This document shows, in pieces, positions 15,476 to 19,478 of a stretch of 64,000 nucleotides of DNA. Within the stretch, counting starts at the first letter, position 1, and each line of letters begins with the position of its first letter. Source of the stretch: Lentisphaera marina (lineage in GTDB: Bacteria; Verrucomicrobiota; Lentisphaeria; Lentisphaerales; Lentisphaeraceae); the NCBI RefSeq assembly GCF_028745505.1, contig NZ_JAQZZL010000001.1, positions 930,001 through 994,000 on the forward strand, read 5' to 3'. The position numbers and the translations under genes are program-made. The notes beneath the pieces were generated by a model. That model was not told the DNA's origin and did no database searches. It saw only the letters and a program-made list of their open reading frames with translations.

Positions 15476-15677
15476 TTAATCGCTTTGCCAGTCGAAAAGG
15501 CTTGGAGAGTTGTCAGTATGTGATTCCGAATTGCTTTTTTTCTTGTTTTTGACGTAATTATTCCCGTTGATATCCTCTAAATCTTGGAGGATGTTGTCGG
15601 CTCGTTTAATTACAGATTTAGGTATGCCTGCTAATTTCGCAACATATATTCCGTAACTTCTGTCGGCAGCACCTGCT
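15476..15677 (-). pseudogene. mutS: mutS, separated 3' fragment
   Basis: This fragment encodes the C-terminal end of Mut[17 protein letters not shown], then a [17 protein letters not shown] helix, and a variable tail ending LFDWQSD. It is the region after FLHKI in other MutS proteins and carries the helix-turn-helix dimerisation segment. The frame is open further upstream, but residues before GAADRSYG come from the inserted element. Joining this fragment (202 bases) to 17176-19478 (2303 bases) gives exactly 835 codons, so it is the lost end of the neighbouring mutS. It has no own start or ribosome site. Confidence 0.93.
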
Positions 15678-15680
15678 TCC

Positions 15681-15691
15681 ATGAGAAGGCA
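15681..15691. repeat. Right subterminal inverted repeat of the IS
   Basis: ATGAGAAGGCA on the plus strand is the perfect inverse of 17158-17168. It lies 3 bases from the inferred right end. Confidence 0.88.
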
Positions 15692-15999
15692 TTTGCAAGT
15701 TACGGTTTGCATTAAAGTTATATTTTTCTGAGAATTGAGAAAACCAGTTTTCAAATGCCATCAAATTGTCTTGCTTCCATTCGCATTCTTTTATGGACTG
15801 CCTAGTCCGATGCATGATTGTATCCTATTTGATGCTGCAATCTTGGCAACGAACTTTCAACAAGGTCTGGCAAACCTATCATTCTGCTGGTGCTCCGCAG
15901 TCATCGCATAAGACATTTGATAAACTCTTTTCTTTTTAAATTTCTTCCTTAATTGTGATTATAAGAAATATTGGGGAGGTTGGCTGGATTGGTGGATAA
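15692..15999 (-). ncRNA. Candidate bridge/seeker RNA region of the IS
   Basis: These 308 bases between the transposase stop and the right inverted repeat have no convincing ORF but can fold. On the minus strand, GATGACTGC (15897-15905) pairs with GCAGCATC (15831-15838) with one bulged A. Inside, GCAG and TTGC can form a second short stem above an internal loop. The loop's 5' side holds AGCACC (15889-15894), complementary to the right half of the mutS target. Its 3' side holds CAAGAT (15840-15845), identical to the left half. A further hairpin GGTTT-GCC-AGACC tops the structure. Two more hairpins follow, including GGACT-AGGC-AGTCC (15795-15808). IS1111-group elements are known to encode a target-choosing RNA here; transcription of this one is inferred. 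Confidence 0.6.
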
Positions 16000-17079
16000 T
16001 CATGATGCTTTTTTTAAAGCCTGTTTGTGGAGTGGTTCATAATTATCGCCACTGACCCAAAGTCGATGCATTAAAACAGCTAGCTTCCTAGCTATGGCTA
16101 CTTTTGCTTTTTTTCTCCCCGCGCCACCACCTCGTGAGGCAATTCGATGTCCGTACCTCTTCAAATCAGAATCCGGGGATCTATCGCTAAAAATATGTTG
16201 AGCACAAATAACCAGTAATGATCTCAAGTACCTATCTCCATGCTTTGTTATTCTTAGTTGTTTATCTTTTTCTCCCGATTGGTCCCGCTTTGGAGTTAGG
16301 CCTAAAAAAGCACCTATATCACGACTCTTATTAAAACGGCTTGGATCATCAATAGTTAAAACAAATGCCAAGGCAGTAACTGGTCCCACTCCAGGAATCT
16401 GCCGCAGGTGCTGAGCCTCGGGACAAGACTCTTCACTAATCAGTTCAATTCGATCATCCAACCTCTCTATTCGATCAGTCAGTTCTTGACATTCGTATAG
16501 CATCTCACCTAAAGTTGGCAATAAATCATCACTTACATATTCATACATCTTTTCACTGAAACGATTAGCTTCGCACTTAGGGAGATCACTAACTCCTAAA
16601 CTCTTTAGTATACCCCTTAATGAATTCATCGTTTGGGTTCGCATCTTCACAAAATGCTCACGAGCACGCAACACTGTAAGCATTTGCTGGGAGTCCATAC
16701 TTCGGTGTTGAATGCCGTACAAAAGTGATGGATCCATTCGGGCTACCCGTGCTATTTTTTCAGCGTCTTTTTCATCGCACTTATTCGTGCTGTCCCATAT
16801 CATTCGGAGCTTACGAGCATTTGCTACAATTACATTGAAGCCCATACTTTTGAGTTTGCTCGATATCCATAAAGAGTTACTTCCTACTTCTAGAGCTACT
16901 CGGATTTTATGAGGGCGTTCATAATTCGAAAAATATACACTTAACGATTCCAGATTATTTTCAATTTTTGCTTGTTCGACGATTTTACCTTCAGAATTTA
17001 AAACACAAATATCGTGTTTTTGATTTCCAAGATCCATTCCAATTGTTATTTCAGGTACAGTGATAGTAGTTTTAGACAT
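16000..17079 (-). CDS. IS110-family transposase (IS1111 group)
   Basis: The 359-residue protein has the two IS110 domains. The N-terminal RuvC-like DEDD domain has D16 (GMDLGNQKHD), E64 (ALEVGSNSLW), and D102/D105 (CDEKDAEKIA). The C-terminal Tnp domain starts QIPGVGPVTAL and includes GAFLGLTPKRDQSGE, where S268 is the expected catalytic serine. A coiled-coil-like segment (about 190-215) links them. The enzyme performs RNA-guided recombination of a circular intermediate. GGAG lies 8 bases before the ATG. All family motifs are intact, so the enzyme is probably active. Confidence 0.95.
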   Translation of the reverse strand: MSKTTITVPEITIGMDLGNQKHDICVLNSEGKIVEQAKIENNLESLSVYFSNYERPHKIRVALEVGSNSLWISSKLKSMGFNVIVANARKLRMIWDSTNKCDEKDAEKIARVARMDPSLLYGIQHRSMDSQQMLTVLRAREHFVKMRTQTMNSLRGILKSLGVSDLPKCEANRFSEKMYEYVSDDLLPTLGEMLYECQELTDRIERLDDRIELISEESCPEAQHLRQIPGVGPVTALAFVLTIDDPSRFNKSRDIGAFLGLTPKRDQSGEKDKQLRITKHGDRYLRSLLVICAQHIFSDRSPDSDLKRYGHRIASRGGGAGRKKAKVAIARKLAVLMHRLWVSGDNYEPLHKQALKKAS

Positions 17080-17132
17080 GGCAGTTCTCCGTTAATTTTG
17101 GTCGTAACTTAATTAATGTCAGGCAAGGTCTG

Positions 17133-19478
17133 CTAGCAAGTGGACTTTGCCGAGGGCTGCCTTCTCATACTATCTTGGATCTTGTGTAAAAAAATAATCT
17201 TGCCTTTGTTTTCATGAACAGCGACGCACCAATTCTTAACTTTTGGTAAGCTAGCGCCAAGTTTGGTTAGTTCGTGATAATGTGTGGCAAATAGAGTTAG
17301 GCAACCTGCTTCGTGTAGGTGCTCGGCAATGGCCCAAGCTAAACTGAGCCCATCGTAAGTGGAGGTTCCTCGGCCAATCTCATCTAAGATAACTAGGCTA
17401 CGTGGGCCAGCGTTGTTGAGGATGTTAGCAGTTTCCACCATTTCTACCATAAAAGTACTTTGCCCTCGACTTAAATCATCGGCTGCGCCTATTCGTGTGT
17501 AAATGCTGTCAGTGATGCCAATTTCAGCACTGCTACATGGGATGAATGAGCCCATTTGAGCCATGATTGTAAGTAGGGCTACTTGGCGAATGTAGGTTGA
17601 TTTACCTGCCATGTTGGGGCCAGTTACTAAGTTGATGGATGCTTGATGATCATTCATTTCAGTGTCGTTTGGAACAAATATGCCAGCATCCATTGCTGCT
17701 TCAACTACGGGGTGTCTACCATCAGAAATGTTGATTTTCTTTTCTTCACAAAGTTGAGGGCATGTGTATGAGCGTTTTAGGGCTACGTACGCCAAATTTG
17801 CTAAGCAGTCCAGTTCTGCTAAGGCAATAGCAGTGCTTTGGATGGCTTTCGTTTTTTCAGTTACTTGTAAGCGTAAATCCTGAAAGAGTTCGTATTCGAG
17901 TGCTTTAGCTTTTTCTTCTGCACCTAAAACTGAGTCTTCGATCTCTTTAAGTTCGGGAGTGATATAACGTTCGGCATTAGCTAAGGTTTGCTTACGAATA
18001 TAGTCCTCAGGAGCTTGAGCTGAATTGATTTTTGAGAGTTCAATAAAATAGCCAAAGACGCGATTGTAACCAATTTTCAGTTTCTTTATCCCCGTGCGTT
18101 CTTTTTCTTGAGCTTCAAAGCGGGCGAGCCAGGCTTTGCCTTCACGACTTCCTTTGCGGAAATGATCAAGTTGCTCGTTGTAGCCGTCGCTAATGATTCC
18201 GCCATCTTTTAAAGTGACAGGAGGTTCATCTGAGAGAGCGTCAATAAGAGTGTCAGTTAATTCTGGGAAGCTATAGAGGCGGGCTTTAATATCTGATAAT
18301 AAATCTGAATCCACGTAAGAAATAATGCTTTCAATATCTGGAATAGCTTTGAGTGCATAGGCAATTGTCTGTAGTTCTCGAGCATTAGCAGTTCCGAGAT
18401 TAAGACGAGTTAAAATACGTTCGATATCTCGGACTGTGCGGAAACTTTCTCGTAGTTCTTCAAGGAGCATCTGGTCGGAACAGAAGGATTTTAGTGTATC
18501 TTGGCGTTGATTTATAGCTTTAATATTAGTTAGTGGACGAAGTAGCCATTCACGCAAAAGTCGACTTCCCATAGGAGTGGAGCATTCATCTAGTACAGAG
18601 ATGAGTGTTGAGTTTTTTGAGTCGCGGAAAATGGGGTCTACTAATTCAAGCGTTCTCTGAGAAACGCGGTCAATAATCATACAATCAGTATTTTGGATGA
18701 GCCCAAGGCTAGTAATGTGGTTTGCAGATCGTTTAAGATTAGTTAAGACATAGTCTAAAAGAGCGCCAGCGGCAGTGATGGCCTCAGTTTGGTTGCGGCA
18801 ACCAAAGCCCTCTAGTGTTTTTACGGCAAAGTGTTTCAGGAGGCTTTGTTCAGTTAAGTCGGAGTCGAATTGCCACGCGGGGATTGGGCTGATGCTGGTG
18901 TTGTCGGGTAGCGAAAAGGGGAGAGTTTGAATGTCTAGATCATCTGCAATGATGAGTTCGGACGGTGAAGCACGATGGATTTCCGCTTCGAGGCTGTGTG
19001 GATCGCAGTGCTCGATAATTCTAAAATTACCAGTAGATAGATCGAGGTAGGCAAGACCAGTTTTCTTTTTTCCTACATGCAAAGAAGCGAGGAAGTTAGC
19101 CTTTGAAGATCGTAAAACGTTATCTTCGGTGACAGTACCTGGTGTGATGACGCGTGTGACGGCGCGTTTTACAATGCCTTTAGTTGTGGCGGGATCTTCC
19201 ATTTGCTCGGCTATGGCGACTTTGAGTCCATGCTCAAGTATTCTAGGTAAATAATTGTCTAAAGCATGGTAGGGTACGCCTGCCATGGGGATCGAGTTTC
19301 TGCGAGTTAGGGTGATGCCCATAATTTCAGCACCACGTTCAGCATCTTCGAAAAATATTTCGTAGAAATCACCTAAGCGGAAGAGTAGGATGGTATCATC
19401 AGTTAGCCCCTCTTTAGCGTCAAGATATTGACGCATCATGGGGGTTAACTTAACGTTTTGTGCCGAAGCTTTAGGCAT
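17133..19478 (-). pseudogene. mutS: DNA mismatch repair protein MutS, truncated by the IS
   Basis: The 781-residue product contains the MutS mismatch-recognition domain (early LFRLGDFYEIFFEDA, the GxFYE-like block), connector, lever and clamp domains, and the ATPase with Walker A GPNMAGKST near residue 617, a ILDEIGRGTSTYDG Walker B region, and the FATHYHEL motif. It stops abnormally: residues 769-781 (DSMRRQPSAKSTC) are encoded by the IS end. About 66 native residues, including the helix-turn-helix needed for dimerisation and ATPase activity in characterised MutS, are missing. It begins on the last base of the hisG stop codon. A stable but defective protein is likely; precise IS excision would restore an 834-residue MutS. 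Confidence 0.93.
17158..17168. repeat. Left subterminal inverted repeat of the IS
   Basis: TGCCTTCTCAT on the plus strand is the perfect inverse of 15681-15691. It lies 7 bases from the inferred left end at 17175. Confidence 0.88.

Follow-up and report, generated by a model that had tools for sequence, protein, structure and literature searches.

The window, that is, the whole stretch of 64,000 nucleotides of Lentisphaera marina DNA that was analysed, contains a 1498-bp insertion sequence (IS) of the IS110 family, IS1111 group, inside the mismatch-repair gene mutS, which raises the question of what directed the element to that site. An answer had been put forward in a first-pass annotation, namely that the non-coding end of the IS encodes a guide RNA of the bridge or seeker kind known from IS110/IS1111 elements, in which a loop base-pairs with both target halves, on opposite strands. 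The present comparison points to the same answer: at a probability of about 0.93, as judged from sequence, the 3' non-coding region encodes a seekRNA/bridge RNA guiding the transposase to the AG of a REP-like target ("REP-like" being a label coined in this analysis). Such RNAs are already known as a kind, and the window element adds an IS1111 lineage to them.

The affiliation of the element rests on its protein, its ends and its layout (Table 1). The transposase gave matches to PF01548 (4e-22) and PF02371 (7.4e-25), its match to NF033542 exceeds the family cut-off, and its nearest solved structures among the PDB relatives are ISCro4 and IS621. It has the DEDD (RuvC-like) N-terminal domain, and the stretch GLTPKRDQSG in its translation corresponds to the G-L-x-P----SG motif of the Transposase_20 C-terminal domain, both as in the IS1111 group. 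In IS1111 elements, three bases extend outside the right subterminal inverted repeat (sTIR), and the flanks found here beyond the sTIRs, seven bases on the left and three on the right, follow this end rule; the IS ends were placed by the 7/3 extension and the boundary was taken from the intact mutS of relatives. The sTIR is perfect, and its length lies within the 7–17 bp given for the group (PMC11208160), while the seven-base extension outside the left sTIR is the one given for ISEc11 (PMC11187229), in both cases in the available parts of these papers. As expected of an IS1111 element, most non-coding DNA lies downstream of the transposase gene (tnp), 308 nt against 78 nt upstream (from sTIR to tnp start). 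Target duplication is absent by the IS1111 end convention, the empty allele being deduced from mutS of two genomes of the same genus, G001 and G002. Since the RNA region lies downstream of tnp and the guide order is reversed with respect to IS621, the window element belongs to the IS1111 group and not to the IS621 type.

Table 1. Features of the element and of the interrupted mutS gene, in window positions
Feature	Position	Strand	Basis
Whole IS (left end AGATAGT, 17169-17175; right end GGA, 15678-15680)	15678..17175	-	Intact mutS of relatives; IS1111 end rule
Left sTIR ATGAGAAGGCA, 11 bp	17158..17168	-	Inverted-repeat pair
Right sTIR TGCCTTCTCAT, 11 bp	15681..15691	-	Inverted-repeat pair
IS110-family DEDD transposase, 359 aa	16000..17079	-	Pfam PF01548 and PF02371, NF033542, PDB relatives
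Non-coding region downstream of tnp, proposed guide-RNA source, 308 nt	15692..15999	-	Sequence layout
Closing stem, 5' arm GATGACTGC, bulged A	15897..15905	-	Standard pairs in 116/120 (15 representatives), compensatory changes
Closing stem, 3' arm GCAGCATC	15831..15838	-	Same stem covariation
Right target guide AGCACCAG, complementary to right target half	15887..15894	-	Flank comparison, permutations
Left target guide TTGCCA, copy of left target half	15844..15849	-	Flank comparison, permutations
Core AG within left target guide	15842..15843	-	Intact mutS of relatives, element comparison
AT after core, copy of first two IS left-end bases (handshake-like)	15840..15841	-	Covariation, weaker once related types are collapsed
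Candidate right donor guide ACAATCA, towards complement of IS left end (ACTATCT)	15815..15821	-	Permutations; anchor partly picked by eye
Candidate left donor guide ATGGAAG, copy of IS right end and core	15774..15780	-	Element comparison, permutations
5' part of split mutS	17176..19478	-	Reading frame continues into IS to 17133
3' mutS remnant, begins with right target half AGCAGGTGCT	15476..15677	-	Pfam, intact mutS of relatives

The interrupted gene fixes the insertion point. In G001 and G002, mutS is one open frame of 837 codons, compared with 788 codons here; the 5' part retains MutS domains I–V, the last of them as far as position 159 of its 188-position profile; the 3' remnant covers positions 153–188 of the same profile, so split a gene suggesting that a mismatch-repair defect is likely. 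At the insertion site, the uninterrupted gene reads ATCCAAGCAGG in G001 and ATCCAAGCTGG in G002, and the junctions of the IS are ...ATCCA/AG/ATAGT-ATGAGAAGGCA on the left and TGCCTTCTCAT-GGA/AG/CAGGTGCTGCC on the right. On account of these intact genes, the insertion point is the AG common to both junctions. A fixed core of seven bases, as first annotated, had to be rejected, since the intact genes give AG only. For the same reason, the 6-mer CAAGAT, equated in that annotation with the left target half, stands as such in its CAAG part, its AT being the start of the IS left end.

The five IS copies of the own genome (G000) were inspected for identical loops lying at unrelated targets. The left flank ends in TGCCAAG in four of them and in TCCAAG at the mutS copy; the right flanks match as well, the four copies that keep a right end being followed by AGC[A/T]GGTGCT (3/4) or by AGCTGCTGCT, with one base different (1/4). 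The right end of the fifth copy is lost. When the two target halves are joined, the predicted target is TGCCAAGC[A/T]GGTGCTTGGCG, a hairpin, which with up to three mismatches was found 8 times in the own genome, 75 times in G001 and 85 times in G002 (control 0 in each), near-palindromic sites possibly being counted on both strands. These repeats are partly clustered, about 37 bp apart, and the open frames over six sites examined measure 40–143 codons. The patterns GCCAAGAN{0,10}GGTGCTTGG and GCCAAGN{0,8}GGTGCTTGG gave 0 matches in the own genome, and the early placement of the insertion point behind the former was wrong.

On its minus strand, the non-coding region reads GATGACTGC-GG-AGCACCAG-C...TCG-TTGCCA-AG-AT-T-GCAGCATC. 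The two 6-mers on which the guide-RNA proposal had been built, AGCACC (15889-15894, minus strand) and CAAGAT (15840-15845, minus strand), do lie between the arms of the stem, and the former, described as complementary to the right target half, falls within the right guide; at REP-type copies the matches are longer, with TTGCCAAG (8 nt, identical) and AGCACCAGC (9 nt, complementary to GCTGGTGCT). As in IS1111 seekRNAs, two short guides address opposite strands and the top-strand match stands 5' of the bottom-strand match. This is the order, right-half complement 5' and left-half copy 3', that the available text of Siddiquee et al. (PMC11187229) gives for IS1111 RNAs, with which the guide order was to be compared.

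Nevertheless, as the first-pass annotation had allowed, two 6-base matches could be chance. Both 6-mers in exact order were met at 63 of 20,000 random window sites, and with six offsets allowed per side the pattern was met at 278 of 5000, a modest freedom which makes the single-copy match no more than suggestive. The 86-nt stretch folds with an ordinary energy (z -1.03; 31/200 shuffles at least as stable); its minimum free energy (MFE) structure contains the closing stem, which is absent from the MFE structure of the longer 184-nt window RNA. Internal promoter signals in the non-coding region number 5, against a shuffle mean of 5.3, and the scan found no terminator inside it. Rfam at gathering threshold, over the whole window, gave no family for the guide-RNA region, and at E<=1 over 15600-16100 one sub-threshold lncRNA match (E 0.87), taken as chance. 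In the joined IS ends of the window element a pair TTGCAA-18-TAGTAT can be read (8/12), and those of L106, L108, L109 and L118 reach 10–11/12 of the promoter match, all values from a best-fit scan without a null; such a pair would fit a circle-junction promoter as in ISEc11. Since neither the single-copy match nor the folding energy was convincing, a comparison across elements was undertaken, and, as far as sequence can speak, it is covariation and not the 6-mer match that decides the case.

The wider relatives comprised four loci (Granulicella, Acidobacterium) and 17 of 387 genomes, at 42–49% identity, and 16 representatives with transposases 42–100% identical were scored by guide-versus-flank permutations. 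Each guide matched the flanks of its own element far better than those of the others: the left guide 4.53/6 against 1.68 (n=15) and the right guide 6.60/8 against 3.31 (n=15), both with 0/200000 permutations as good. Several representatives have a common attC-like target, and when these were reduced to one in a repeat test the result was again 0/200000 for the left (n=11) and for the right guide (n=11). The poorest left-guide matches were those of L119 (2/6), L109 (3/6) and L115 (3/6), and the poorest right-guide matches those of L118 (4/8) and of type C, described below (5/8). In nearly every element the left and right core dinucleotides agree, being AG, or AA in Granulicella; the exception is L035 (CG on the left, versus AG). 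The closing stem also covaries, the 116 standard pairs out of 120 including double changes (e.g. A-T to G-C, T-A to C-G) at pairs 2, 3, 4, 6 and 7, and once at pair 1; for this count the stem arms were entered by hand, and the 3' arm of L118 fell outside the script check. Covariation in the 16 representatives thus supports the proposed IS110/IS1111-type guide RNA, with its opposite-strand pairing, and both the change of guides together with flanking targets and the covariation of the stem, named as checks in the first-pass annotation, were borne out.

Moreover, the spacing of the left guide is constant. In 14–15 of the 16 representatives CG stands before it (L118 and L119 have TG), and three bases separate its end from GCAG or an equivalent, so that guides can be read off a sequence by a simple rule: CG - six bases - core - three bases - GCAG.

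Some elements were left out before the counts, L102 (run of N after tnp), L105 (contig edge), L041 (contig end), L114 and L130 (no inverted repeat), L040 (tnp split) and L045 (right end lost). L107, with four flank bases, stood outside the left-guide test, L110, with no right flank, outside the right-guide test, and L118 and L119, with no anchor, outside the right-donor test; L116 was represented by its second copy, L121, because a repeated right end follows L116. Four further members of the lineage that were at first set aside, L111, L128, L129 and L131, show a left guide at the predicted spot (4, 3, 5 and 5 of 6 by eye, the scripted pick for L128 being a different spot), and the scripted best right guide lies beside CTGC in L111 (7/8), L128 (6/8) and L129 (7/8) and elsewhere in L131 (5/8). 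In the unbiased scan, null sites were as good for the joint guides in 28, 8, 11 and 102 of 200 cases, respectively, a moderate advantage over the null at best and none at worst, so these elements are consistent and carry modest weight. In addition, 12 distant plasmid elements (33–40% identity to the query) were added, of which four (L138, L139, L140, L142), without an inverted repeat of at least 9, remained unscored. For L133, L136 and L141 the joint match was 15–16 of 16, equalled by 0, 1 and 1 of 200 null sites; it was weak for L132, L135 and L143 (24, 25 and 45 of 200), and L134 and L137 had no joint guide match (193 and 140 of 200). A genome-contig scan with a single transposase returned 18 pattern matches and no relative, and the viral-contig scans returned no relatives.

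Natural retargeting was found within the genus itself. G002 harbours a type A transposase, a 98% relative, together with types B and C at 70–71%, and the three subtypes have scaffold and ends in common and guides that are different, each matching its own flanks. In type B, the guides ACCATAGG / TAACTC correspond to flanks CCTATGGT / TAACTC, and in type C the guides CCATGC / CCTAA correspond to GCATG[G/A] / CCTA[A/G]. The joined type B target occurs uninterrupted 19 times in G002, 5 times in G000 and once in G001 (control 0); the joined type C target occurs 32, 11 and 9 times in G002, G000 and G001 (controls 5, 5 and 6), a clear excess in G002 only. One IS1111 lineage, with the same scaffold and ends, therefore carries at least three guide pairs in one genus, beside intact targets.

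A second set of guides, directed to the IS ends, is indicated by the same permutations. The left donor guide matches its own end in 2.94/3 positions against 1.88 for others (n=16) and the right one in 3.86/5 against 2.06 (n=14), both 0/200000; with the attC-like group collapsed these become 9/200000 (n=11) and 20/200000 (n=9). A donor-binding loop with guides to both IS ends is thus found statistically, the right donor guide being the less certain, since its last core position is unmatched throughout and its anchor was in part a choice by eye, made where two were possible. This uncertainty, the invariance of the donor guides among subtypes A, B and C, and the short seekRNA of ISEc11 (82 nt), sufficient for transposition in the available part of Siddiquee et al. 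(PMC11187229), would suit a loop for the target that functions alone, the donor-guide segments being scaffold conserved for other reasons. That is unlikely, however, given that the left donor guide follows the IS right end through four forms (GGA, AAG, AGG, AGA), a relation that survives collapsing, and that donor-binding nucleotides are predicted in IS1111 by Durrant et al. (PMC11208160, in the text available).

It could also be held that the 6-mers are chance and that the site is chosen by protein–DNA recognition of the REP-like hairpin, as the frequency of the two-6-mer pattern under modest freedom, the hairpin form of the target and the ordinary folding energy might suggest. Such a view has very little probability left and, on the sequence evidence, is already contradicted by covariation: where the guides differ, the element lies in a different sequence, to which they correspond; among the G002 subtypes, guides and flanks vary in step on an unchanged scaffold with unchanged ends; and the mutS site offers only the 13-bp centre of the repeat, with no hairpin. 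Equally improbable is that the region is a 3' UTR of the transposase, decayed or regulatory, whose guide function was lost in this copy, as the missing promoter and terminator signals might indicate, for four of the five own-genome copies have a 100% identical non-coding region, the fifth agrees at 99% over 285 nt, the guides are intact, as is the stem, and recent copies lie at matching targets. One G002 copy of the 308-nt region also prints as 100% identical.

Returning to the seekRNA/bridge RNA, what was observed is the anatomy, the ends, the empty site of relatives, the covariation of guides with targets and ends, and that of the stem; its transcription, processing, assembly into an RNP and order of reaction are inferred. 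In the first loop, closed by GATGACTGC/GCAGCATC, two guides would pair with opposite strands of the target halves around the common AG core, and a second stretch about 60 nt further 3' would supply two weaker guides for the joined IS ends. The RNA-guided transposase would excise the element as a circle, to be inserted without target duplication at the AG of the REP-like hairpin TTGCCAAGC[A/T]GGTGCTTGGCG, and one copy would have used the 13-bp match to this repeat inside mutS.

The bases next to the core may add to this picture. The two that follow it in the left guide copy the IS left end, with 1.88/2 for the own element against 1.07 for others (n=16; 23/200000 permutations in one run, 6/100000 in another), and the same bases compared as a control with the right target half gave no signal (0.33 against 0.43); with related types reduced (n=11), the result weakens to 1812/200000. 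The first base alone agrees in 24/24 elements (0/200000) and in 11/11 chosen representatives (96/200000), counts entered by hand, with L132 and its weak guide spot among them. The equivalent comparison for the donor loop was marginal (0.87 against 0.68; 4012/100000). In IS621, handshake guides form part of the right target guide and take part in exchange of the top strand, according to the available part of PMC11208158. It is therefore tempting, at somewhat less than even odds, to see IS1111 RNAs as the mirror image of IS110 bridge RNAs, with loops running right-left twice and handshake bases after the core on the left guide, since left-guide handshake bases and reversed loops are what would be expected if IS1111 runs the same reaction on the opposite strand. 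If so, the mechanism would be that of IS621, except that the opposite (bottom) strand should be exchanged first, and the reversed guide order left open by Siddiquee et al. would be accounted for.

Among known systems, as described in the available text of the respective papers, the closest are the IS1111 seekRNAs of ISEc11, ISPa11, ISKpn4 and ISPst6 (Siddiquee et al. 2024, PMC11187229), which are alike in the non-coding region downstream of tnp, the sTIR with its 7-bp left extension, the opposite-strand guides overlapping at the insertion point, the right-half (top-strand) match 5' of the left-half match, and natural retargeting between relatives; the target of ISPa11 is a REP, to which the REP-like target is similar. 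The window element, whose RNA is predicted, differs in host lineage and target, and neither the fixed CG - 6 nt - core - 3 nt - GCAG spacing nor donor guides are described in that text. The IS621 bridge RNA (Durrant et al. 2024, PMC11208160; Hiraizumi et al. 2024, PMC11208158, in the parts available) likewise has target and donor loops, left and right guides in each, a common core dinucleotide, and two bases beside the core that match the non-cognate partner. In contrast to IS621, the RNA of the window element lies 3' of tnp and not upstream, its guides run right-left in both loops instead of left-right, and its handshake-like bases are on the left target guide. The attC-like relatives L107, L110, L112 and L115–L117 (compare ISKpn4), whose target sites are read as attC from their motif, have the same sTIR ATGAGAAGG and RNA frame, and differ in a left flank ending in AACA or AACC in most and in ATCC in L115. 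Beyond the available portions of PMC11187229, PMC11208160 and PMC11208158, the literature search, with preprints and most subscription journals outside its scope, gave no paper on donor or handshake covariation in IS1111. The covariation reported here supports donor guides for IS1111 which had been predicted in print and, in those portions, not shown by covariation for this group.

As to why mutS was hit, the site has in common with the REP-like repeat only the 13-bp centre CCAAGC[A/T]GGTGCT, and compared with the guides it gives 3/6 on the left, 2/2 in the core and 7/8 on the right. That exact 13-mer is occupied by three of the five IS copies, including the mutS copy, and the own genome, an assembly of 3 contigs that is 94.5% complete, has 0 intact copies of it; G001 has 49 and G002 has 25 (controls 0, 0 and 1, in the order own genome, G001, G002). 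The insertion may have occurred because preferred sites are scarce in this genome: with these few or exhausted, a coding sequence with the same 13 bp would have been used. This suggests a route by which a normally harmless site-specific element disrupts a housekeeping gene, namely the want of intact preferred sites. A possible alternative history is that REP sites were lost after the insertion in mutS.

Several minor observations were also made. The own genome has one other MutS-like match only, partial and at 33% identity (G000:C2:1980650). In its fifth IS copy (L045, G000:C2:1531000-1535500) the right end is replaced by other DNA, and a further insertion is likely since a 26-bp right-end fragment sits about 1.1 kb away; at G000:C2:460043-460090 there is a lone 50-bp right-end remnant (86%) with no transposase. 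The REP-like site L068 (G000:C2:1099795), TGCCAAGATAGTGCTTGGCG, has IS-left-end-like bases after the core and would be a scar or else a point variant of the repeat. In G002, another insertion divides the transposase gene of L040 (G002:C28), a type C-like copy. Behind L116 (G109:C1:329473), part of its RNA region and right end is repeated in a second tandem copy. In the Granulicella elements L100, L101 and L103 the target loop is very compact, 35 nt separating the stem arms in L103, and a short GC hairpin lies between the guides. Finally, the non-coding region of L107 (G345) carries the 5' stem arm and right guide twice, as GATGACTGCGGTGGTGCGTCAG and GATGACTGCGGTGAGCTGTCAG, a doubled guide arm that is possibly a step in retargeting.
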